Below, piece after piece: positions 1,784-52,807 of a stretch of 64,000 nucleotides of DNA; positions within the stretch are counted from its first letter, which is position 1; the number at the start of each line of letters is the position of its first letter. The stretch is taken from positions 9,128,001-9,192,000 of the forward strand of contig NC_021658.1 in NCBI RefSeq assembly GCF_000418325.1, given 5' to 3'. Origin of the DNA: Sorangium cellulosum So0157-2 (GTDB lineage Bacteria; Myxococcota_A; Polyangia; Polyangiales; Polyangiaceae). The notes under the pieces are model-generated. The model did no database searches, had not been told where the DNA came from, and worked only from the letters and a program-made list of their open reading frames with translations. The translations under genes were made by a program, and so were the position numbers.

Positions 1784-3955
1784 ATGAAGCACGCCTCCCT
1801 CGCGGCGCTCTCGCTTGCCCTCACCGCGTGCGCCGGACCGCTGGCCAAAGGGCCGTCGCCCGATCTCCGCCTGCGGCACGTCGTCCTGTACCAGAACGGC
1901 CTCGGCTACTTCGAGCGCACCGGCGTCATGTCGGGCGAGCGGCTCTCGCTCCGGTTCCGGGAGCGCGAGGTCGACGACGTGCTGAAGAGCATGGTGGTCG
2001 TCGAGCAGGACCTCGGGCCGAACGACACCCCCTCCACCGTGAGCGCGCTCTTGCCGCGCTCCGGGCAGGCGAGCGGGCCCGAGGATCCCGCCGAGGTCGA
2101 GCTCGTCTTCTCGCCGGCCGCGAAGAGGCCCGTGTCGATCGCGTACGCGGTGCCGACCGCCGCCTGGAAGGCGACCTACCGCGTGATCCTGCCGGCCAAG
2201 GGGCAGAAGGAGAAGCGGGCGCTCCTCCAGGCCTGGGCGCTCATCAGCAACATCGGCGACGAGGACTGGAGCGAGGTCAACGTGACCCTCGCGACGGGCG
2301 CGCCGCTCTCCTATGCCTCGAACCTGCGCGCGCCGGCGATGCTCGACAGGCCGGAGCTGAAGGGCGTCTACGACGGCGAGGGCGGCGCGCTCGCCCCCGT
2401 GCTCGCGGAGAGCTCGCCCGGGCCCGACGCCGACCGCGACGGCGTGTTCGACCACGAGGACGCCTGCCCGCGCGAGCCCGGCTCGGCGAGCCCGCAGCCC
2501 AACCATCACGGCTGCCCCAAGGCGGTCCGCGCCATCAGCAGCGAGATCCAGATCCTGACCGCCGTGCCCTTCGACAAGGGCTCGGACGTCATCCCGCCGC
2601 GCGCGAGGCCGCTCATCGAGGAGATCGCGCGCACGATCAAGGGCGTCCCGCACATCCGCGCGTTCGAGGTCGAGGGGCACGCGTCGACCGACGAGGCCGG
2701 CGCGGCCGATCTCGCGGCCCGGCGCGCCGCGGCCGTGCGCGCGGCGCTCCTCCAGCTCGGGGTCACGGCCGAGCTCGTGACACGCTCGCACGCCGCCGAG
2801 ATGCCCCTCGCCGCCAACGACACCGAGGACAACCGGCAACGCAACCGCCGCGTCTCGCTGCGCGCCTCGGACGTCGGGCCGGCGCAGGCCCCCAGCCCGG
2901 GGCGCGAGGCGCCGGCCGTCACGCCCGAGGCGATGGCGAAGGTGCCGGAGGGCGCGGCGAGCGTGGACGCCGTGGCCGGGGCCTTCCGGTACGCGATCGC
3001 GAACCCGGTGACGCTCCCGAAGAAGTCGTCGGCGCTGATCACGCTCATCAACCGTTCGGTCGCGGGCGAAGACGTCCTCCTGTTCCGCCCCGATCCCGCG
3101 GCGCCCGCGAGCGCGACCCACCCCTTCCGGGCAGCGCAGGTCGAGAACCGGAGCGCGCTCGGCCTCCAGCCCGGATCCGTGTCGATCTTCTCCGGCGGGA
3201 CCTTCGTGGGCGAGGGCGTGCTCACGCGCCTCTCGCCCGGGCAGAGCGCGACCATCCCGTACGCCATCGACAGCTCGACCGAGGTGCGCGCGACGAGCAT
3301 GACCACGGACGTGCCGGTGCGGCTCGTGTCGCTGTCCCGCGGCGCGCTGCGCGTGGAGGATCGGTACCGGCGCGTGACGGTCTACGAGGTGAGGCCCGGC
3401 CGGGACGTGCCGGAGACCTTGCTCATCCGCCACGCGAGGGCGACGGGGTTCGAGCCGCTGGGCCTCCCGGGGTGCACGGACGCGACGCCGGACGCCTGCC
3501 TCGTCGAGAAGAAGCTCGCGCCCGGCGCGCCCCAGAAGATCGTTGTCGAGGAGACGCGGCTGTCGCAGCGCGAGATCCCGCTCGTCCAGGCCGACAGCGA
3601 TCGGCTCTCGCTGTACCTGAAGGGATCGAGCGTCCCGGCCGAGCTCCGCGCGAGGCTGGACCGCGCGCTCGCGCTCCGGCGCGCGCTCGACGCGGCGAAC
3701 GACGAGCTCGACCCCCTGAGGCGGAGGCGCGCCGAGCTGATCGACCGCGCCGCCGAGCTGCGCGAGAGCCTGAGGACCATCGAGCGCACGCCCCAGGCCG
3801 GCAAGCTCCGCCAGACCTTGCTCGACCGGCTCGCCGAGGTGGCGCGGCAGTCCGAGGAGCTCGGCGCGAAGATCACCCAGCGCGTCGAGGACGCGGCCAT
3901 GGCGCGCGCCGAGCTCGACGAGACGCTCCGCGATCTGGTCCTCGAAGGCCGGTGA
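1784..3955 (+). CDS. DUF4139 lipoprotein with inserted OmpA-like domain
   Basis: The product has 723 residues. The start at 1784 gives a lipoprotein signal (MKHASLAALSLALTACAG, lipobox LTAC), whereas longer starts in this frame do not. A DUF4139-type mucoidy-inhibitor-like domain is split: the first part (about 20-190, VVLYQNGLGYFER) and a later part (about 400-610, AFRYAIANPVTLPKKSSALITL) flank an insertion. The insertion holds an acidic TSP3-like calcium loop (DADRDGVFDHEDACP) and an OmpA-like domain (VPFDKGSDVIPP through NRQRNRRVSL) of the kind that binds peptidoglycan. The C-terminus is a long charged coiled coil. I infer an envelope lipoprotein anchored to the cell wall; its biochemical role is unknown. 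Confidence 0.8.
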   Translation: MKHASLAALSLALTACAGPLAKGPSPDLRLRHVVLYQNGLGYFERTGVMSGERLSLRFREREVDDVLKSMVVVEQDLGPNDTPSTVSALLPRSGQASGPEDPAEVELVFSPAAKRPVSIAYAVPTAAWKATYRVILPAKGQKEKRALLQAWALISNIGDEDWSEVNVTLATGAPLSYASNLRAPAMLDRPELKGVYDGEGGALAPVLAESSPGPDADRDGVFDHEDACPREPGSASPQPNHHGCPKAVRAISSEIQILTAVPFDKGSDVIPPRARPLIEEIARTIKGVPHIRAFEVEGHASTDEAGAADLAARRAAAVRAALLQLGVTAELVTRSHAAEMPLAANDTEDNRQRNRRVSLRASDVGPAQAPSPGREAPAVTPEAMAKVPEGAASVDAVAGAFRYAIANPVTLPKKSSALITLINRSVAGEDVLLFRPDPAAPASATHPFRAAQVENRSALGLQPGSVSIFSGGTFVGEGVLTRLSPGQSATIPYAIDSSTEVRATSMTTDVPVRLVSLSRGALRVEDRYRRVTVYEVRPGRDVPETLLIRHARATGFEPLGLPGCTDATPDACLVEKKLAPGAPQKIVVEETRLSQREIPLVQADSDRLSLYLKGSSVPAELRARLDRALALRRALDAANDELDPLRRRRAELIDRAAELRESLRTIERTPQAGKLRQTLLDRLAEVARQSEELGAKITQRVEDAAMARAELDETLRDLVLEGR

Positions 3956-3980
3956 GCGCCGGCGGACGATGATCGTGGCA

Positions 3981-4003
3981 CGCGGCGGCCGCTTTCCGCC
4001 GCG
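3981..4003 (+). terminator. Candidate hairpin terminator after the DUF4139 gene
   Basis: An 8-bp perfect stem (CGCGGCGG/CCGCCGCG) with a 7-base loop ending in TTT lies 25 bases after the stop codon. There is no T tract after it, as is usual in very GC-rich genomes. Confidence 0.4.
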
Positions 4004-4199
4004 ACCGGCTTCCCTCCCGCCGCGGCGAGGGTGCTAGGATGGCGGCCCGACTCATGACCTCTCGAGCGACGCAGGCATGGCCAGAGCGGAGGTCTCATGA
4101 GCCGCGACGACGAACATCTCCGTCTCTGATGACAAGCGAGCCCATCGGACCACGGCGACGCCGTGTCGCAGGTGACGCTGGATGGGCCCAGGAGCGCTC

Positions 4200-6068
4200 A
4201 TGAGGAACAGTTCTCGAGCTGCCGGGGACAGCCGCGTTCCCCCCCGCCGTCGTCGCGCGTCCGGCGCCGCGTGGGCGGCGTCGCACGCCCTCTTCGCGAT
4301 GCAGGTCGCCTGCGGCGCGTCCATGCCGCAAGCCGCCGACACGGTGCTGCGGAACGGCTTCGTGTACACCGTCGACGGCGCGGACTCGGTGCACCAGGCG
4401 GTCGCGGTGCGCGAGGGCAAAATCGTCTATGTCGGCGCTGACAGCGGCGTGCAGGGTTATGTGGGTCCTCGGACCGAGGTCGTCGATCTGAAGGGCCGCA
4501 TGCTGATGCCGGGGCTCGTCGACGGCCATTTGCACGCGATGTCCGGCGGGACGCAGCGCCTGTTGTGCAGCCTCGAGTACAAGACGCACACGATCGCGCA
4601 GCTCCAGGCGAAGATCCAGGCTTGCCTCGACGGCGAGCCGGCCAAGGGTCCCGACCAGTGGCTCGAGGTGACGAGCTGGGATCGGCAGGGCACGGTCTCG
4701 GTGGACGCCGACCCGACGCGGGCCGCGCTCGACGCGCTCAGGACCCAGCGGCCGATCCTCGTGCACTCCACCGATCACCACAGCGCGCTGACCAACTCGC
4801 GCGGCATGGCGCTGGCGGGCATCACCGCCAAAACGCCCGATCCGGCCGGCGGCAAGATCGGCCGCGACGCAGGCGGCCAGCCGACGGGCATCTTCGAGGA
4901 TGCCGGCATCGCCCTCGTATCGGCGGCCATGCCGCCGCGGACGCCGGAGGACGACGTGCGCAGCGCCAAGGCGGCGCTCGACGCGATCCGCCGCCAGGGC
5001 GTGACCACCTTCATGGACGCGTCTTCGGACGAGCGCGCGCTGAGGGCGTTCACGGCCGTGCAGCGCAGCGGCGAGCTGACGGCGAGGGCGCTCTTCGCCA
5101 TCCTGATCGATCCCGACGAGGTGGCGAAGGGTCCTGAAAAGGCGATCGCCGCGGCCAAGGCATTGGCGTCCTCCTACGATCAGCCCGCCGCTGCGCCGGC
5201 CCCCGGCGTCGGCGCTCGCCACATCAAGGTCATGCTGGATGGCGTCCTGCAGGCGCCGGCCCAGACCGCGGCGATGCTCGCGCCGTACCATGTCAACGTG
5301 GGCGCGGACGGCGCGCCGCAATGGGTCCCGGGCAAGCACAGCGGCGACGTGTACTTTCCGCCGGACACGCTGAAATCGCTGCTCCTCGCGGCGGTCGAGG
5401 CCGGGCTCGATCCCCACGTCCACGCGATCGGCGATCGTGCCGTGCGGCAGACGCTCGACGCTTACGAGGCCGTGCGCGCCCGGCTGCCGGGCAACGACGT
5501 TCGCGCGGCGATCGCGCATTGCGAGACGGTCGATCCGGCGGATTTCGGCCGCTTCAAGGCGCTCGGCGTGATCCCGGTGATGTCGTTCCAGTGGGCGCAG
5601 GAGGCCCCGTATTCCGTCGATGCGATGAAGCATCAGCTCGGGCCGGAGCGCTATGCGCGCCTGGAGCCCGAGGGCAGCCTGCACGACGCCGGCGCGCGGC
5701 TCGCTTATGGCAGCGACTGGCCGATCGATCCGTTCGCCGAGTTCCTGGCCCTCAAGATCGGCGTCACCCGCAAGGGGGACCCGACGCATCCGGCCAGCTT
5801 CGGCCCGTCCTATGCTGGCCGGCTCAACGACGACCCGCTCCTGCCGCGCAACGTGGCGCTGCGCGCGATCACGATGAACTCGGCCTACCAGCTGCGGCTG
5901 GAGAAGGTCGTGGGCTCGATCGAGCCGGGCAAATTCGCCGACATGATCGTGCTGGACCAGAACTTCCTTCAGATCCCCGAGGATGATCTCGGCAAGATTC
6001 AGGTGCTCATGACCATGGTCGGGGGGAAGATCGTCTATACCGCCGAGGCAGTGCGGCCGAAGGGGTAG
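4200..6068 (+). CDS. Amidohydrolase family protein (YtcJ-like, amidohydrolase_3)
   Basis: The product has 622 residues. ATG 4200 is chosen because AGGAG lies 5 bases before it; an ATG at 4182 lacks a site. The N-terminus is basic and then hydrophobic, and may be an export signal. Family features are DTVLRNGFVYTVDG, the metal-binding HxH in PGLVDGHLHAMSGG, a later HAIGDRAVRQTLDAYE with a metal-ligand histidine, the aspartate in YGSDWPIDPF, and the C-terminal strand GSIEPGKFADMIVLDQNFL. This is the usual size and order for YtcJ-like metal-dependent amide hydrolases; the substrate cannot be told. The genes that follow handle pseudouridine but start 60 bases further on with their own ribosome site. 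Confidence 0.85.
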   Translation: MRNSSRAAGDSRVPPRRRRASGAAWAASHALFAMQVACGASMPQAADTVLRNGFVYTVDGADSVHQAVAVREGKIVYVGADSGVQGYVGPRTEVVDLKGRMLMPGLVDGHLHAMSGGTQRLLCSLEYKTHTIAQLQAKIQACLDGEPAKGPDQWLEVTSWDRQGTVSVDADPTRAALDALRTQRPILVHSTDHHSALTNSRGMALAGITAKTPDPAGGKIGRDAGGQPTGIFEDAGIALVSAAMPPRTPEDDVRSAKAALDAIRRQGVTTFMDASSDERALRAFTAVQRSGELTARALFAILIDPDEVAKGPEKAIAAAKALASSYDQPAAAPAPGVGARHIKVMLDGVLQAPAQTAAMLAPYHVNVGADGAPQWVPGKHSGDVYFPPDTLKSLLLAAVEAGLDPHVHAIGDRAVRQTLDAYEAVRARLPGNDVRAAIAHCETVDPADFGRFKALGVIPVMSFQWAQEAPYSVDAMKHQLGPERYARLEPEGSLHDAGARLAYGSDWPIDPFAEFLALKIGVTRKGDPTHPASFGPSYAGRLNDDPLLPRNVALRAITMNSAYQLRLEKVVGSIEPGKFADMIVLDQNFLQIPEDDLGKIQVLMTMVGGKIVYTAEAVRPKG

Positions 6069-6128
6069 AGGGCCGCGTCGCCCGAGGCCTCCCCGATCGC
6101 CAACCCCTCGCAGCCGGAGGATTTCAGC

Positions 6129-7066
<938 letters not shown>

Positions 7067-38110: not shown

Positions 38111-39154
38111 TCAGCGCGGGGGAGCAGGGAGCGGCTGGCAGCAGAAGGTCGAGGGATGCGTGGGGGTAGCTTCGCCGAGCAGCTCTCCGCCGCTGGTCTC
38201 GCACGTGCCGGGGCGGTGCGTGGTCCATGTGGCGCTCATGCTCTTGAGCGCGACGCCTTCCATGACGTCGACGCACAGCCCTGCCTCCGTGCCGACCGCG
38301 TGCGAGGCGAACGCGTCGGTGCACGCGTCATCGGCGTAGGCGGAGACGGAAGCGGAACAGGAGCTCTCCCCCGTCGGGGTGCACGCGCACGGCGTGCATT
38401 CGCGGGTGTCTTCGAAGTCCCTGTAGAACACGTGCATGAGCGGGTAATCGTCCGGGCACACCGGCTCGCCGCCGCCCAGGTACATGATGCATTGCCGGAA
38501 GCCGGGTGGCGGAGGCTCCGGTGCTGGCCAGCACTTCTCTCCGGCCGGGCATACGGGCTCATCGGTGTCCCCGAAGACGTCTTCGTCGTCCACCGCGATC
38601 GGGTCGCCCTTGCATGCGCGCGCCAAGGTCTTCCAGGGGGAGATGAACCCGTCTCGAGCGCTTCGCCGCGGCACCGGCTCGGGCTCGATCGGCTCGCATG
38701 CCGTCGCCGTGACCGGCGCGATCACCAGCGAAGCCAGCCGTTCGTCCGGGACCGCGGTCGCCGCGACGCAGGATCCGTCCCAGCCTGTAGGAGCGCCGAA
38801 GGCCGTGAACGTCGGGCCCTGGCAGAGAGGAGCGTCGCTCGCCCGCAAGACGGAGGGCAGCCCGCAGGTCGGCTCGCTGCACCGGCACGCGGGACACTCG
38901 TAGGGGACGTCCAGATCCGCGTGGCCCTCGTAGACCTTCGCCGGAGCGCTCAGAGGCGGACATTCGGGCGCCGACAGCTCGCTGCCGATGTAGAGCAAGA
39001 CCGGATCCGTGAAGCCCAGCGGCGGAACAGAGGTGCACTCGCAGGGGCAAGAGCGGGTTTCCCGGCAGTCGTAGGAGTACGGGGAGCCGCAGCCCTGCCA
39101 CAGGGCCGCAGCACATGCGGCCACGACGATGACTCCTGAGGAACGCCGCGCCAT
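38111..39154 (-). CDS. Cysteine-rich lipoprotein
   Basis: The product has 347 residues. The signal is MARRSSGVIVVAACAAALWQGCG. The mature part has about 30 cysteines in clusters (SYDCRETRSCPCECTS, YECPACRCSEPTCG, CPAGEKCWPAPEPP, ECTPCACTPTGESSCSAS) and ends TFCCQPLPAPPR. The final CC motif recurs in the lipoprotein at 50751. No enzymatic motif is seen. Such Cys-rich lipoproteins are numerous in Sorangium-type genomes and of unknown function. It is the last gene before the CRISPR locus. Confidence 0.72.
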   Translation of the reverse strand: MARRSSGVIVVAACAAALWQGCGSPYSYDCRETRSCPCECTSVPPLGFTDPVLLYIGSELSAPECPPLSAPAKVYEGHADLDVPYECPACRCSEPTCGLPSVLRASDAPLCQGPTFTAFGAPTGWDGSCVAATAVPDERLASLVIAPVTATACEPIEPEPVPRRSARDGFISPWKTLARACKGDPIAVDDEDVFGDTDEPVCPAGEKCWPAPEPPPPGFRQCIMYLGGGEPVCPDDYPLMHVFYRDFEDTRECTPCACTPTGESSCSASVSAYADDACTDAFASHAVGTEAGLCVDVMEGVALKSMSATWTTHRPGTCETSGGELLGEATPTHPSTFCCQPLPAPPR

Positions 39155-39247: not shown

Positions 39248-39792
39248 CATGACGAATCGCAAACAGTGAAGGATTACGCGGAGGATGGGGCGTCGCTGCG
39301 TGCAGGGAAGGGCGGGCTGGGGGTGCTTTGCTGAGCTCGCAGGAACGGGGGCGTCGACGGAGCAAGGGGAGAGGAGGAGCAGGTAGACGTCTTCCCGGCG
39401 GGCTCGGCCGCTCCGGAGGCGCGCGGGTCGGAGGCGCCGGAGAAAATCGGCGCAAGGCCGAGATCCGGCTTCCATGGGGCCGCCGCCTTTCAGCGGCGGA
39501 GAGGGGCGGCGCCCCGTACTCCGCGCCTCCCTCGGGCATGACGAATCGCAAACAGTGAAGGATTACGCGGAGGATGGGGCGTCGCTGCGTGCAGGGAAGG
39601 GCGGGCTGGGGGTGCTTTGCTGAGCTCGCAGGAACGGGGGCGTCGACGGAGCAAGGGGAGAGGAGGAGCAGGTAGACGTCTTCCCGGCGGGCTCGGCCGC
39701 TCCGGAGGCGCGCGGGTCGGAGGCGCCGGAGAAAATCGGCGCAAGGCCGAGATCCGGCTTCCATGGGGCCGCCGCCTTTCAGCGGCGGAGAG
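39248..39792. repeat. Direct duplication (256 bp, 289-bp offset) of array flank plus terminal repeat
   Basis: Positions 39248-39503 and 39537-39792 read identically. Each copy has about 220 bp of non-coding flank followed by one CRISPR repeat carrying the same A-to-C change (GCTTCCATGG for GCTTCAATGG). The 33 bases between them (39504-39536) look like what remains of a spacer. Confidence 0.85.
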
Positions 39793-42662
39793 CCGGCCTC
39801 GTCGCTTCTCATCCCCTCTCGGGTGAGGCTTCAATGGGGCCGCCGCCTTTCAGCGGCGGAGAGTCGGGCAAGAGAGCCTCCGCCCACGTCCTGACGTCCC
39901 TCGTCCAGCGGTGGCTCAAGGAACAGCGGCTTCAATGGGGCCGCCACCTTTCAGCGGCGGAGAGGTGATTCCGGGCGGCGGAAGCGTGCTCGCGGTGGTC
40001 GCTTCAATGGGGCCGCCGCCTTTCAGCGGCGGAGAGTGTTGGTGAACACAACCTTAGCCAACTCGCTCATGTTGCTTCAATGGGGCCGCCGCCTTTCAGC
40101 GGCGGAGATCGGGATCGCCCTCGTCCAGCGGTGGCTCAAGGAACAGCGGCTTCAATGGGGCCGCCACCTTTCAGCGGCGGAGAGGTGATTCCGGGCGGCG
40201 GAAGCGTGCTCGCGGTGGTCGCTTCAATGGGGCCGCCGCCTTTCAGCGGCGGAGATTCAAACACACCTCTCCGACCGTGCTGTTCGCAGAGCGGCTTCAA
40301 TGGGGCCGCCGCCTTTCAGCGGCGGAGATCGGGATCGCCCTCGTCCAGCGGTGGCTCAAGGAACAGCGGCTTCAATGGGGCCGCCGCCTTTCAGCGGCGG
40401 AGAGTTGGCGCGGACCGTTGCGGCGCGCGCCGGACCCCCTGGCTTCAATGGGGCCGCCGCCTTTCAGCGGCGGAGAGCGAGGCAGAGGAGCGGATGTTTA
40501 ACACCGGAGACTTGCTTCAATGGGGCCGCCGCCTTTCAGCGGCGGAGAGAGAGCGCCGAGGCGCGCGGGAGGATGGAGATGAGCATGCTTCAATGGGGCC
40601 GCCGCCTTTCAGCGGCGGAGAGCTCCGAGGCAACCAGCGCATCGGCCGCGCACGTGAGGCTTCAATGGGGCCGCCGCCTTTCAGCGGCGGAGAGCGCGGC
40701 GCAGACGGCGCCGGAGCAGACGATCGCGGAGCTTCAATGGGGCCGCCGCCTTTCAGCGGCGGAGAGAAGATCGTCGAGGCCACTGGCAACGTTCGCCAGG
40801 TCTAGCTTCAATGGGGCCGCCGCCTTTCAGCGGCGGAGAGTAGAAGGCGGGCCGGAACCCTCGCACGTGGTCGGCGTAGCTTCAATGGGGCCGCCGCCTT
40901 TCAGCGGCGGAGAGCACGTTCCTGATCACGACGACGAAGATGCTCATCAGGCTTCAATGGGGCCGCCGCCTTTCAGCGGCGGAGAGGCCCTGCTACAACG
41001 TAGAGCTTGAAGACCCGGACCGTATGCTTCAATGGGGCCGCCGCCTTTCAGCGGCGGAGAGGTCTCCCCGACGACCCTCACGCCGGGCGTCTACCTGCTT
41101 CAATGGGGCCGCCGCCTTTCAGCGGCGGAGAGACCGCGTCGTCGTACACGCTCTCCGGCAGATCGAAGCTTCAATGGGGCCGCCGCCTTTCAGCGGCGGA
41201 GAGCGTGCGTGCCGTTCGCACGGACGCGCCGGATTTTGTCCGGGCTTCAATGGGGCCGCCGCCTTTCAGCGGCGGAGAGCTCGATGGCGCGCCCCGAGGC
41301 GTCGCAGCCCTCCTGGCCGCTTCAATGGGGCCGCCGCCTTTCAGCGGCGGAGAGGCGGGAGTTCGACCGGCTCCGCGGCGACGCGAAGGCGCTTCAATGG
41401 GGCCGCCGCCTTTCAGCGGCGGAGAGCCGCCGGTCGTCGTGGTCGGCGGCGCGCGCGTGCCAGCTTCAATGGGGCCGCCGCCTTTCAGCGGCGGAGAGGG
41501 CCCAGTGGATGGATAATAGCGGCATGTTCCGCAAGCTTCAATGGGGCCGCCGCCTTTCAGCGGCGGAGAGCGCATAGGCACTGCTGCGACGTCAGGAACG
41601 TGCACCTGCTTCAATGGGGCCGCCGCCTTTCAGCGGCGGAGAGGATGCAGGGATTTTTCGTCCCTCCTACGCATGCCATCGCTTCAATGGGGCCGCCGCC
41701 TTTCAGCGGCGGAGAGCCAGCAAGGCTCCGGCATCGAACACGACCTTAGAGGCTTCAATGGGGCCGCCGCCTTTCAGCGGCGGAGAGCGCGTTCGGACGC
41801 GATGCCTCGATGTCGCGGCTGTTGCTTCAATGGGGCCGCCGCCTTTCAGCGGCGGAGAGCCACCTCGCAGACACGTGGGAGGTCATCTGCAAGACGCTTC
41901 AATGGGGCCGCCGCCTTTCAGCGGCGGAGAGTCGTGCAGGTCGACTTGACGGTGCGCCCGACGGAGCGGCTTCAATGGGGCCGCCGCCTTTCAGCGGCGG
42001 AGAGCTGCGCAGCGAGTCCGCGCGCGACGCGTTCGTCGAGGTGCTTCAATGGGGCCGCCGCCTTTCAGCGGCGGAGAGATGGAAGCGAGATGAGCTGTGG
42101 TTCACATTTGCGGAGCTTCAATGGGGCCGCCGCCTTTCAGCGGCGGAGAGCTCAAGGAAACAGGGCGCACGGGGAGCTCCCCGAACTTGCAGCTTCAATG
42201 GGGCCGCCGCCTTTCAGCGGCGGAGAGCGCGCGGCAGGGCCATTACGCAGCGCTCCCCTCTCCGGCTTCAATGGGGCCGCCGCCTTTCAGCGGCGGAGAG
42301 GTGCTCTCAGCCCAGTCGCGCACGCTCTCCGCGGTGCTTCAATGGGGCCGCCGCCTTTCAGCGGCGGAGAGTCAGCGTCGACGGGACGTCGCCGAGCAGG
42401 GCGAGCGCTTCAATGGGGCCGCCGCCTTTCAGCGGCGGAGAGCACACGCGCTGTGCGAACCGGTCGATCGCGTACCTCGTGCTTCAATGGGGCCGCCGCC
42501 TTTCAGCGGCGGAGAGTGGGTGAGCCAGTCAGCGAAGAGTATACGTGCACTTGCTTCAATGGGGCCGCCGCCTTTCAGCGGCGGAGAGGCGGTTTTCGCT
42601 GTGCCGGAACCGGAGCCACTCTGGATGCTTCAATGGGGCCGCCGCCTTTCAGCGGCGGAGAG
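39468..42662 (-). CRISPR. CRISPR array, 41 repeats of 36 bp, no cas genes in window
   Basis: Forty-one 36-bp repeats (plus-strand reading begins GCTTCAATGGGG and ends GCGGCGGAGAG) are separated by mostly 35-40-bp spacers; one outlier is 65 bp. A 7-bp stem CCGCCGC/GCGGCGG lies within the repeat. On the minus strand the repeat ends ATTGAAGC, like the crRNA 5' handle of many class 1 systems. Repeat variants cluster at the left: A-to-C in the first two (39468, 39757), CCGCCACC in those at 39929 and 40149, and a final T in those at 40074, 40221 and 40294. Both facts suggest transcription right to left with the leader after 42662. Many spacers are less GC-rich than the genome. Frames through the array are false. 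Confidence 0.95.
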
Positions 42663-43278
42663 AGACCTCCCAGGCCTACCTGAAATTTCGCACACTTGCG
42701 ACCCGGTTTGCGAGAGGTCCCCGCCGCCCCCCTCGCTCCGGCCGCCGGAGGCCGCCCCGCGCGCCCCCGGCCATCCCGAAATCCATCGTCTTTTCAAACA
42801 CCTGCCGGCCTTGCGAGCGCCCCCCCGGCTTTTCCGCACCACTCCACCGCTCGCAGCCGGTGCTCCCGCCCTCTTCTACCACGCCCCCTCCTCCCCTCGA
42901 CCAGCCCTTCCGTTCTCCTCGGCCGCTTTGCCGCTCCCTCGCGCGGATCCCCGCCCCTCTCCTCCTCCTCCTTTCCCCGGATCCCCGCCCCTCTTCTCTC
43001 GATCCCCGCTCTCCCGCACTCGATCCCCGTCTCCCGCGACCTCCACCCCCACCTCTCGCTCGTAATCCCCCAGCTCCCCTCACTCGATCCCCGCCTTCCC
43101 CGACTCGATCCCCCGCGCCGGCGCCTCCCTCCCCCCGGGTACTCCGACCCGCCGACCGGGGGCGCCCCTCGCCCGCCCTGGGTTTCCCCTTCCCGACCCC
43201 GGCGCTCTCTTGCTCCGCCCTGGTGGACGCGTCCCCCGACCCCGTACGGTCGTCTTCCACGGGAGGACCTCATTTGTC
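42663..43278. other. C/T-rich intergenic region with degenerate GATCCCCG repeats; candidate CRISPR leader
   Basis: The first 55 bases after the array are relatively A/T-rich (CTGAAATTTCGCACACTTG) and are the best candidate leader if the array is read leftward. From about 42840 the plus strand is strongly pyrimidine-rich. It contains at least six copies of (C/G)GATCCCCG (at about 42945, 42977, 42999, 43020, 43084 and 43105), several about 21 bp apart. No gene is seen. GGAGG at 43262 belongs to the next gene. Confidence 0.6.
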
Positions 43279-44672: not shown

Positions 44673-45836
44673 ATGCTCCTCAAGAGTCTGCGGCTGGATC
44701 GGTTCCTGTCCTTCGGCCCGGGCTCCGATCCGATCGAGCTCAGCAAGCTCAACGTCCTCATCGGACCCAACGGGTCAGGCAAGTCGAACTTCATCGAGGC
44801 CATCGGCTTCCTTCGCGCCGCGCCCACGGATCTGCTCGCCCCGGTACGACAAGGCGGGGGAGTGAGCGCATGGATCTGGCGAGGCGAGCCGGGCGCGAAG
44901 GCCGAGGTGGAGGCCGTCCTCGCGTACCGGCCGGAATCGAGCTGGAACCTACGCCACCGGGTCTCCTTCACCGAGCTCGGAGCACGCCTGGAGATCGTCG
45001 ACGAGCGCATCGAGGACGAGGAGCCGCCGGCCGAGCCGACGGGCCAGCACGTCTACTTCGGCTACGAGCACGGACGCCCGATGCTCAACGTGAGAAACGG
45101 CAAACGCGAGCTCCGCCGCGAGGACATCGATCCCCAGCAGTCCATCCTCTCCCAGCGCAAGGATCCCGATCATTATCCGGAGCTCTCGTTCGTCGGGGAT
45201 CACTACAGCAAAATCCGGCTTCACCGTGACTGGGGCCTCGGACGCGCCTCGTCGCCACGATACCCGCAGCCGTCCGATCTGCCGACCGACCACTTGCGAG
45301 AAGACGCACAGAACCTCGGGCTGATCCTGAACCGGTTCCGCCGGGATATCCCGACGAAGCGGGTGCTGATCGACGCCTTGCAGCAGGTCTTCGATGGAGC
45401 CGTGGACTTCTCCGTGCAGATCGAGGGAGGAACGGTCCAGATATTCCTCGAGGAAGAGCGCTGGACGCTCCCCGCGACGCGCCTCTCCGACGGCACCATC
45501 CGATGGCTCGCGCTGCTCGCCATCCTGCTCGATCCAGCGCCACCGCCGCTCGTGTGCATCGAGGAGCCGGAGCTCGGCCTCCATCCGGATCTGATGCCCA
45601 CGCTCGCGCGCCTCCTGCTCGGCGCATCGGAGCGCACACAGGTCATCGTGACGACGCACTCGGATGTCCTCGTCGATGCGCTCTCCGACGCGCCGGAGAC
45701 GGTGCTCGTCTGCGAGCGCCACGAAGGACGGACGACCCTGCGGCGCCTCACGCGGGACGCACTCTCGACGTGGCTTGAGGCGTACACGCTCGGTGAGCTC
45801 TGGCGCAAGGGCGAGCTCGGGGGCACACGATGGTAG
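44673..45836 (+). CDS. AAA-family ATPase (AAA_21/RecF-like)
   Basis: The product has 387 residues. Walker A LNVLIGPNGSGKSNFIEAIG is at about 27-46, the ABC-type signature-like RLSDGTIRWLALLAILLDP at about 270, Walker B PPLVCIEEPELGLHPDLM and the H-loop VIVTTHSDVLVDAL. The layout is that of small SMC/RecF-like ATPases (AAA_21) found alone or beside TOPRIM-like or DUF4276 proteins in defence contexts. The stop overlaps a following ATG by 7 bases; that next gene begins like a DUF4276 protein but stops after 18 codons. The ATPase itself appears intact. Confidence 0.88.
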   Translation: MLLKSLRLDRFLSFGPGSDPIELSKLNVLIGPNGSGKSNFIEAIGFLRAAPTDLLAPVRQGGGVSAWIWRGEPGAKAEVEAVLAYRPESSWNLRHRVSFTELGARLEIVDERIEDEEPPAEPTGQHVYFGYEHGRPMLNVRNGKRELRREDIDPQQSILSQRKDPDHYPELSFVGDHYSKIRLHRDWGLGRASSPRYPQPSDLPTDHLREDAQNLGLILNRFRRDIPTKRVLIDALQQVFDGAVDFSVQIEGGTVQIFLEEERWTLPATRLSDGTIRWLALLAILLDPAPPPLVCIEEPELGLHPDLMPTLARLLLGASERTQVIVTTHSDVLVDALSDAPETVLVCERHEGRTTLRRLTRDALSTWLEAYTLGELWRKGELGGTRW

Positions 45837-52283: not shown

Positions 52284-52324
52284 CGCCGGGGGCGAAAGGG
52301 GTTCCCCGCGCGGGGGGTGAGTGC

Positions 52325-52666
52325 GGGTCCCTCAACCCCGGTCGGGTCCCTCAACCCCGGTCGGGTCCCTCAACCCCGGTCGGGTCCCTCAACCCCGGTC
52401 GGGTCCCTCAACCCCGGTCGGGTCCCTCAACCCCGGTCGGGTCCCTCAACCCCGGTCGGGTCCCTCAACCCCGGTCGGGTCCCTCAACCCCGGTCGGGTC
52501 CCTCAACCCCGGTCGGGTCCCTCAACCCCGGTCGGGTCCCTCAACCCCGGTCGGGTCCCTCAACCCCGGTCGGGTCCCTCAACCCCGGTCGGGTCCCTCA
52601 ACCCCGGTCGGGTCCCTCAACCCCGGTCGGGTCCCTCAACCCCGGTCGGGTCCCTCAACCCCGGTC
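52325..52666. repeat. Minisatellite: 18 exact copies of a 19-bp unit
   Basis: The unit GGGTCCCTCAACCCCGGTC is repeated 18 times without a single change over 342 bp. Because 19 is not a multiple of 3, all plus frames read the same peptide period. The complementary strand has GGGG and GGG runs in each unit, so G-quadruplexes are possible. It lies in the 524-bp gap 52284-52807, of which it fills most; the rest holds no gene. Confidence 0.95.
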
Positions 52667-52807
52667 GGGTCGCTCCATCGTCGGTGCTCCGGCGCGGGCC
52701 GCTCCGCCATGGCGCCGCCACCCGCCCGATGCGCATGCCACGCCCCCAAATCCCTTGATTTCGGCCTCTCGACCGCCCGGCACGCGATCTGCCATCGACG
52801 CCACGCC

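Follow-up and report, generated by a model that had tools for sequence, protein, structure and literature searches.

Within the 64,000-nucleotide stretch of the chromosome of the soil bacterium Sorangium cellulosum So0157-2 analysed here (bases 9,128,001-9,192,000, hereafter the window) lies a CRISPR array, termed W, whose 41 repeats on the minus strand read CTCTCCGCCGCTGAAAGGCGGCGGCCCCATTGAAGC or close variants of it. The array itself, its leader and the features of its left end are listed below.

42663..42912, minus strand: leader of array W, last 250 nt ahead of the first repeat, placed by leader alignment
39757..42662, minus strand: main type I-G CRISPR array W, 40 of the 41 repeats (the 41st is the stranded repeat)
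39898..40255, minus strand: second tandem duplication, in the trailer half, with 138-bp perfect copies at 39898-40035 and 40118-40255
39864..39928, minus strand: 65-bp fused spacer, the first 31 bp of w31 followed by the last 34 bp of another spacer
39793..39827, minus strand: w38, last complete spacer of the main array
39757..39792, minus strand: inner terminal repeat, with the same substitution as the outer one
39537..39756, minus strand: inner copy of the trailer flank F, 220 bp
39504..39536, minus strand: Sx, a 33-bp remnant read as a truncated spacer, which links the inner copy of F to the outer repeat
39468..39503, minus strand: terminal repeat of the outer copy (stranded), carrying the change CATTGAAGC -> CATGGAAGC
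39248..39467, minus strand: outer copy of F, 100% identical to 39537-39756, with no third copy in the genome

The Duplicated Block at the Left End of Array W

Self-comparison of the window shows a 256-bp block that is present twice, at 39248-39503 and 39537-39792, with an offset of 289 bp and 0 mismatches, and a chance origin of a perfect match of this length is excluded. Each copy consists of the 36-bp terminal repeat and the 220-bp flank F, and both terminal repeats (R') carry the same substitution, which in the sense of the array changes CATTGAAGC to CATGGAAGC. Exactly 33 bp (Sx) separate the two copies, directly before the outer repeat, and the order in array sense is ...w38-R'-F(220)/Sx(33)-R'-F... 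(the slash marks the joint). Since whole spacers in the three arrays of the So0157-2 genome are 35–44 bp long, the best reading of Sx is a spacer cut short by a few bases at its start. The preliminary description, which had reported the block at this offset, its make-up of about 220 bp of flank and one repeat with a shared point change, and the stranding of one repeat and about 33 bp outside the main array, is thus confirmed in each of these respects.

Both the flank and the remnant are unique. Beyond its two copies, F has no further copy in the 14.78-Mb genome (one contig of 14,782,125 bp) and no match in five congeners, and an exact 30-mer taken from it has no match in GTDB contigs. The first 25 bases of Sx likewise have no other match in the 14.78-Mb genome, even when 3 mismatches are allowed. 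The joint between F and Sx (...GTCATG/CCCGAGG) contains no repeat and no extended homology. Among the other arrays examined in the same genome and in congeners we found no similar duplication of flank plus repeat, W being the only one of those examined to have it.

Two possible roles for F were considered and rejected. It is not a conserved CRISPR-linked element, as no match to it was found next to the other arrays, at any other place in the genome, in the congeners or (by the 30-mer) in GTDB contigs, nor a structured RNA, its folding energy being the same as that of shuffled sequences (z of −0.06). Rfam gave no match in the window, and a weak terminator-like hairpin directly follows the repeat in both copies.

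On its far side the outer copy of F runs into the intergenic region of the neighboring gene (38111-39154, minus strand). The product of this trailer-side gene has no Pfam match; its family has 25 matches in the So0157-2 genome and members in all five congeners examined, with best identities of 40–43%. An attempt to establish synteny by this gene met many paralogs at about 35–47% identity.

Polarity of the Array

The right flank of W (42663-42912) is 92% identical over 249 nt to the leader of a second array of the genome, B, and 80% identical to that of a third, A, and it matches the leaders of several congener arrays at 74–87%. Read in its canonical sense, the repeat has the tail TTGAAGC, a motif published for G-type repeats (PMC11237760). 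With the leader at the right end and the repeats read in this sense, the left end of W is the trailer, that is, the leader-distal end. It has the marks of one, lying opposite the leader and ending in a substituted terminal repeat, and the terminal repeat of B carries substitutions as well.

The preliminary description had added that, were the left side the leader after all, the structure would be a doubled leader offering two points of spacer acquisition. Nothing else speaks for this suggestion. The leader lies at the right end and is common to two other arrays of the same genome and to congener arrays, and a leader or acquisition point at 39.5 kb would call for leader homology directly upstream of a repeat. 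The region upstream of the outer repeat has no significant leader match, its best being 15 bp on the opposite strand. We therefore regard a doubled leader as extremely improbable. New spacers would thus not be expected to enter at the outer repeat, which no leader precedes.

Further Rearrangement in the Trailer Half

The region beside the duplicated block, from 39.86 to 40.36 kb, is likewise rearranged. The 34-bp half of the fused spacer comes from a spacer that is present whole (37 bp) in array A, and the repeats between the two halves have been deleted. The 138-bp duplicate has an offset of 220, equal to three repeat-spacer units, and carries variant repeats. A fused spacer and a three-unit duplicate at the same trailer indicate that both illegitimate and repeat-mediated events took place there.

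Tandem repeats were also seen at other places. The window contains at 52324-52675 a near-perfect minisatellite of 18.5 copies of the 19-mer CGGGTCCCTCAACCCCGGT (99% matches), which sits in a 763-aa open frame with no Pfam match. In one congener (G001, L038 at ~3400-4150, reverse-strand 5849-6590), an imperfect tandem duplication of 398 bp (83%) that contains no CRISPR repeat lies ~540 bp outside an array, past its trailer end.

The Type I-G System of the Genome

Array W is part of a type I-G (formerly I-U) CRISPR-Cas system. Its 36-bp repeat CTCTCCGCCGCTGAAAGGCGGCGGCCCCATTGAAGC has the TTGAAGC tail and most of its spacers are 35–39 bp long, which compares with the G-type definition of a 36-bp repeat with that tail and spacers averaging 36–37 bp (PMC11237760). 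The type I-G cas genes adjoin array A, where the effector genes for Csb1, Csb2 and Cas3g and, for adaptation, a Cas4/Cas1 fusion containing the sole Cas1 of the genome were found.

L009:6985-9984, minus strand: Cas3g, 2e-255
L009:9977-11668, minus strand: Cas56g (Csb2, a Cas5-Cas6 fusion), 2e-132
L009:11668-12945, minus strand: Cas7g (Csb1), 3e-51
L009:13482-15494: Cas4-Cas1 fusion, Cas4 Pfam 9e-14 and Cas1 5e-91

Two ORFs scanned upstream of cas3 (L009:2536-4347 and 4142-5836) gave no match to Cas8 (csx17/cas8u). A near-perfect tandem repeat with an 86-bp period lies at L009:17428-17749, ~700–1000 bp upstream of the first repeat of array A. On the leader side of W, at a distance of ~1.8 kb, the window holds an AAA ATPase gene (44673-45836) with a full-length PADLOC match to HEC-01A (566 bits), followed by a radical SAM gene; the two may form a defence neighborhood near the W leader.

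Spacer Sharing Among the Three Arrays

The genome has three arrays with the same repeat, namely W, A (C1:610-614.5 kb, L009/L010) and B (C1:8415.6-8416.7 kb, L011/L012). Counted as distinct spacers, A and W have 17 identical ones in common, B and W 7, A and B 5, and all three arrays 5, which means that 17 of the 31 distinct spacers of A and 7 of the 13 of B are also in W. Unit-exact spacer blocks of W recur in both other arrays, and B and W have an identical first spacer after the leader. A and W also have 5 ordered neighbor pairs in common, where 0.24 would be expected and none of 20,000 shuffles reached as high a count. The identical boundaries of the shared spacers, and the recurrence of adjacent pairs in the same order, speak against their independent re-acquisition. 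The 14 A-W shared spacers searched have only array matches in their own genome and no credible phage match, and neither one spacer nor the repeat, each searched for on its own, matched viral contigs exactly.

Four array loci of one congener, with more than 160 spacers, have none in common between loci, and the contrast with So0157-2 points to recombination between arrays. In a congener (G004), two arrays at ~399 and 420 kb (L034/L035) have leaders that are 98% identical over 736 bp and no common spacer, a sequence pattern that suggests recent duplication or conversion of the leader.

Array A (L010:406-4540) is itself unusual in that 15 of its 55 neighboring spacers are identical tandem copies, vs. 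0–1 per congener array. Its spacers seem to run two or three times through lists of similar order, as if the array had been duplicated and then pruned, or else misassembled. If the assembly is right, array recombination has been extensive in this genome. In favor of real sharing between B and W, the two leaders are 8% divergent and the common first spacer stands within ~110 bp of them, which would be within reach of a single 454 read.

Origin of the Trailer Duplication

The preliminary description had taken the copying of the flank along with the terminal repeat to imply recombination, and this is supported, recombination being the best explanation of the structure. A plain tandem duplication would place the same spacer before both repeats; as the spacers differ, an account in two steps, a duplication followed by loss or replacement of one spacer, is the simplest, and we somewhat favor it as the origin of a recombination scar at the trailer of this type I-G array. 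In the first step, either unequal exchange or template slippage at a fork would have produced an illegitimate tandem duplication whose joint connects flank sequence 220 bp past the terminal repeat with spacer Sx, a few bases in from its start, giving Sx-R'-F/Sx(33)-R'-F. In the second, homologous recombination between 36-bp repeats, either within the array or with another array of the same repeat, would have removed or replaced the whole Sx before the inner repeat, where w38 now stands; R' would keep its substitution, which is close to its 3' end, if the exchange fell in the preceding ~30 bases. The perfect 256-bp duplicate with a unique, spacer-like 33-bp remnant between its copies, the leader at the opposite end, the fused spacer and 138-bp three-unit duplicate at the same end, and the unit-exact blocks common to three same-repeat arrays are all in keeping with this account, and repeat-mediated deletion and duplication is an accepted route of array rearrangement (PMC8047081). 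Against it, two events are required, no relative was found to preserve the ancestral single-copy state (F being unmatched in the five congeners and, by a 30-mer, in GTDB contigs), trailers are reportedly better conserved than any other part of an array (PMC8047081), and zero divergence between the copies would fit an assembly error too. A single exchange would do without the later deletion: a version of the array ending in w38-R'-F, supplied by a sister lineage or by a converted copy, would have been joined illegitimately, inside F, to the Sx of a version ending in Sx-R'-F. This explains the differing spacers before identical repeats, and the mosaic spacer order of A, B and W shows that different versions have met in the lineage, but a second version of the W end is not known, and F occurs at a single locus in the genome and is unmatched in the congeners and GTDB contigs, so that we consider this origin rather improbable.

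The structure could also be an artefact of the 2013 hybrid assembly, which may have strung together two haplotypes of the array end or closed a PCR gap wrongly. That assembly of So0157-2 combined Illumina HiSeq with 454 shotgun data and used PCR to close gaps (PMC3696898), and with such a method the local duplication and the spacer sharing could both contain assembly errors. The copies are identical, a 545-bp structure and arrays of 36-bp repeats are difficult for short reads, and the many identical tandem neighbors in array A are out of line with the congener arrays. However, the join of F to Sx offers no overlap on which an assembler could merge contigs, Sx is real, unique sequence that needs a source, local tandem duplications that are genuine exist at other places in the genome, and seven additional paired-end insert libraries as well as fosmid end checks were reported (PMC3696898). 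On balance an artefact seems unlikely, and the duplication at the W trailer is probably ordinary recombination scarring.

No function is evident for the duplication. Lacking both a leader and a usable spacer, the outer repeat would be expected to take up no spacers and to yield no normal crRNA.

Implications and Comparison With Known Systems

A wider reading, which we advance tentatively and at slightly less than even chances, is that the scattered I-G arrays form a recombining family in which blocks are copied between arrays 0.6–8.5 Mb apart and re-amplified within them, the W trailer duplicate being one scar of this process. CRISPR arrays serve as time-ordered records of infection, and their trailers are treated as stable anchors; a trailer duplicated with its flank, together with spacer sharing among three arrays, would caution that neither assumption is safe where a genome has several arrays of the same repeat. 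If the recombining-family reading is true, spacer order in such genomes does not document when spacers were acquired, and the ends of arrays can take neighboring chromosome along.

The system closely resembles the myxobacterial I-G systems already described (PMC11237760), with the same 36-bp TTGAAGC repeat, arrays scattered away from the cas genes, and the same csb1-csb2-cas3 set with a Cas4/Cas1 fusion; the main text of that paper does not name So0157-2 or use the word "shared." With the repeat-spacer duplications and deletions reviewed in PMC8047081 and quantified in PMC11472070, the W trailer has in common its perfect copies, repeats and truncated units as breakpoints, and terminal-repeat polymorphism at the trailer. 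It differs from those cases in its breakpoints: one is 220 bp beyond the array, with the result that flank was copied with the repeat, and the other falls inside a spacer and not in a repeat; a limited literature search found no described example of a flank-plus-repeat duplication like this one. As for the sharing between arrays, SpacerPlacer puts duplication candidates at ~3% of spacers, and inter-array recombination is cited as rare (PMC11472070), while Touchon and Rocha had already marked duplications between the CRISPRs of one genome (PMC2886076). As here, their "duplication events between CRISPR" in Escherichia and Salmonella concern arrays that lie apart on one chromosome, have related leaders and hold identical spacers. 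So0157-2 differs in the extent of the sharing, with more than half of the distinct spacers of both A and B also present in W, and is a strong instance of an already known kind.
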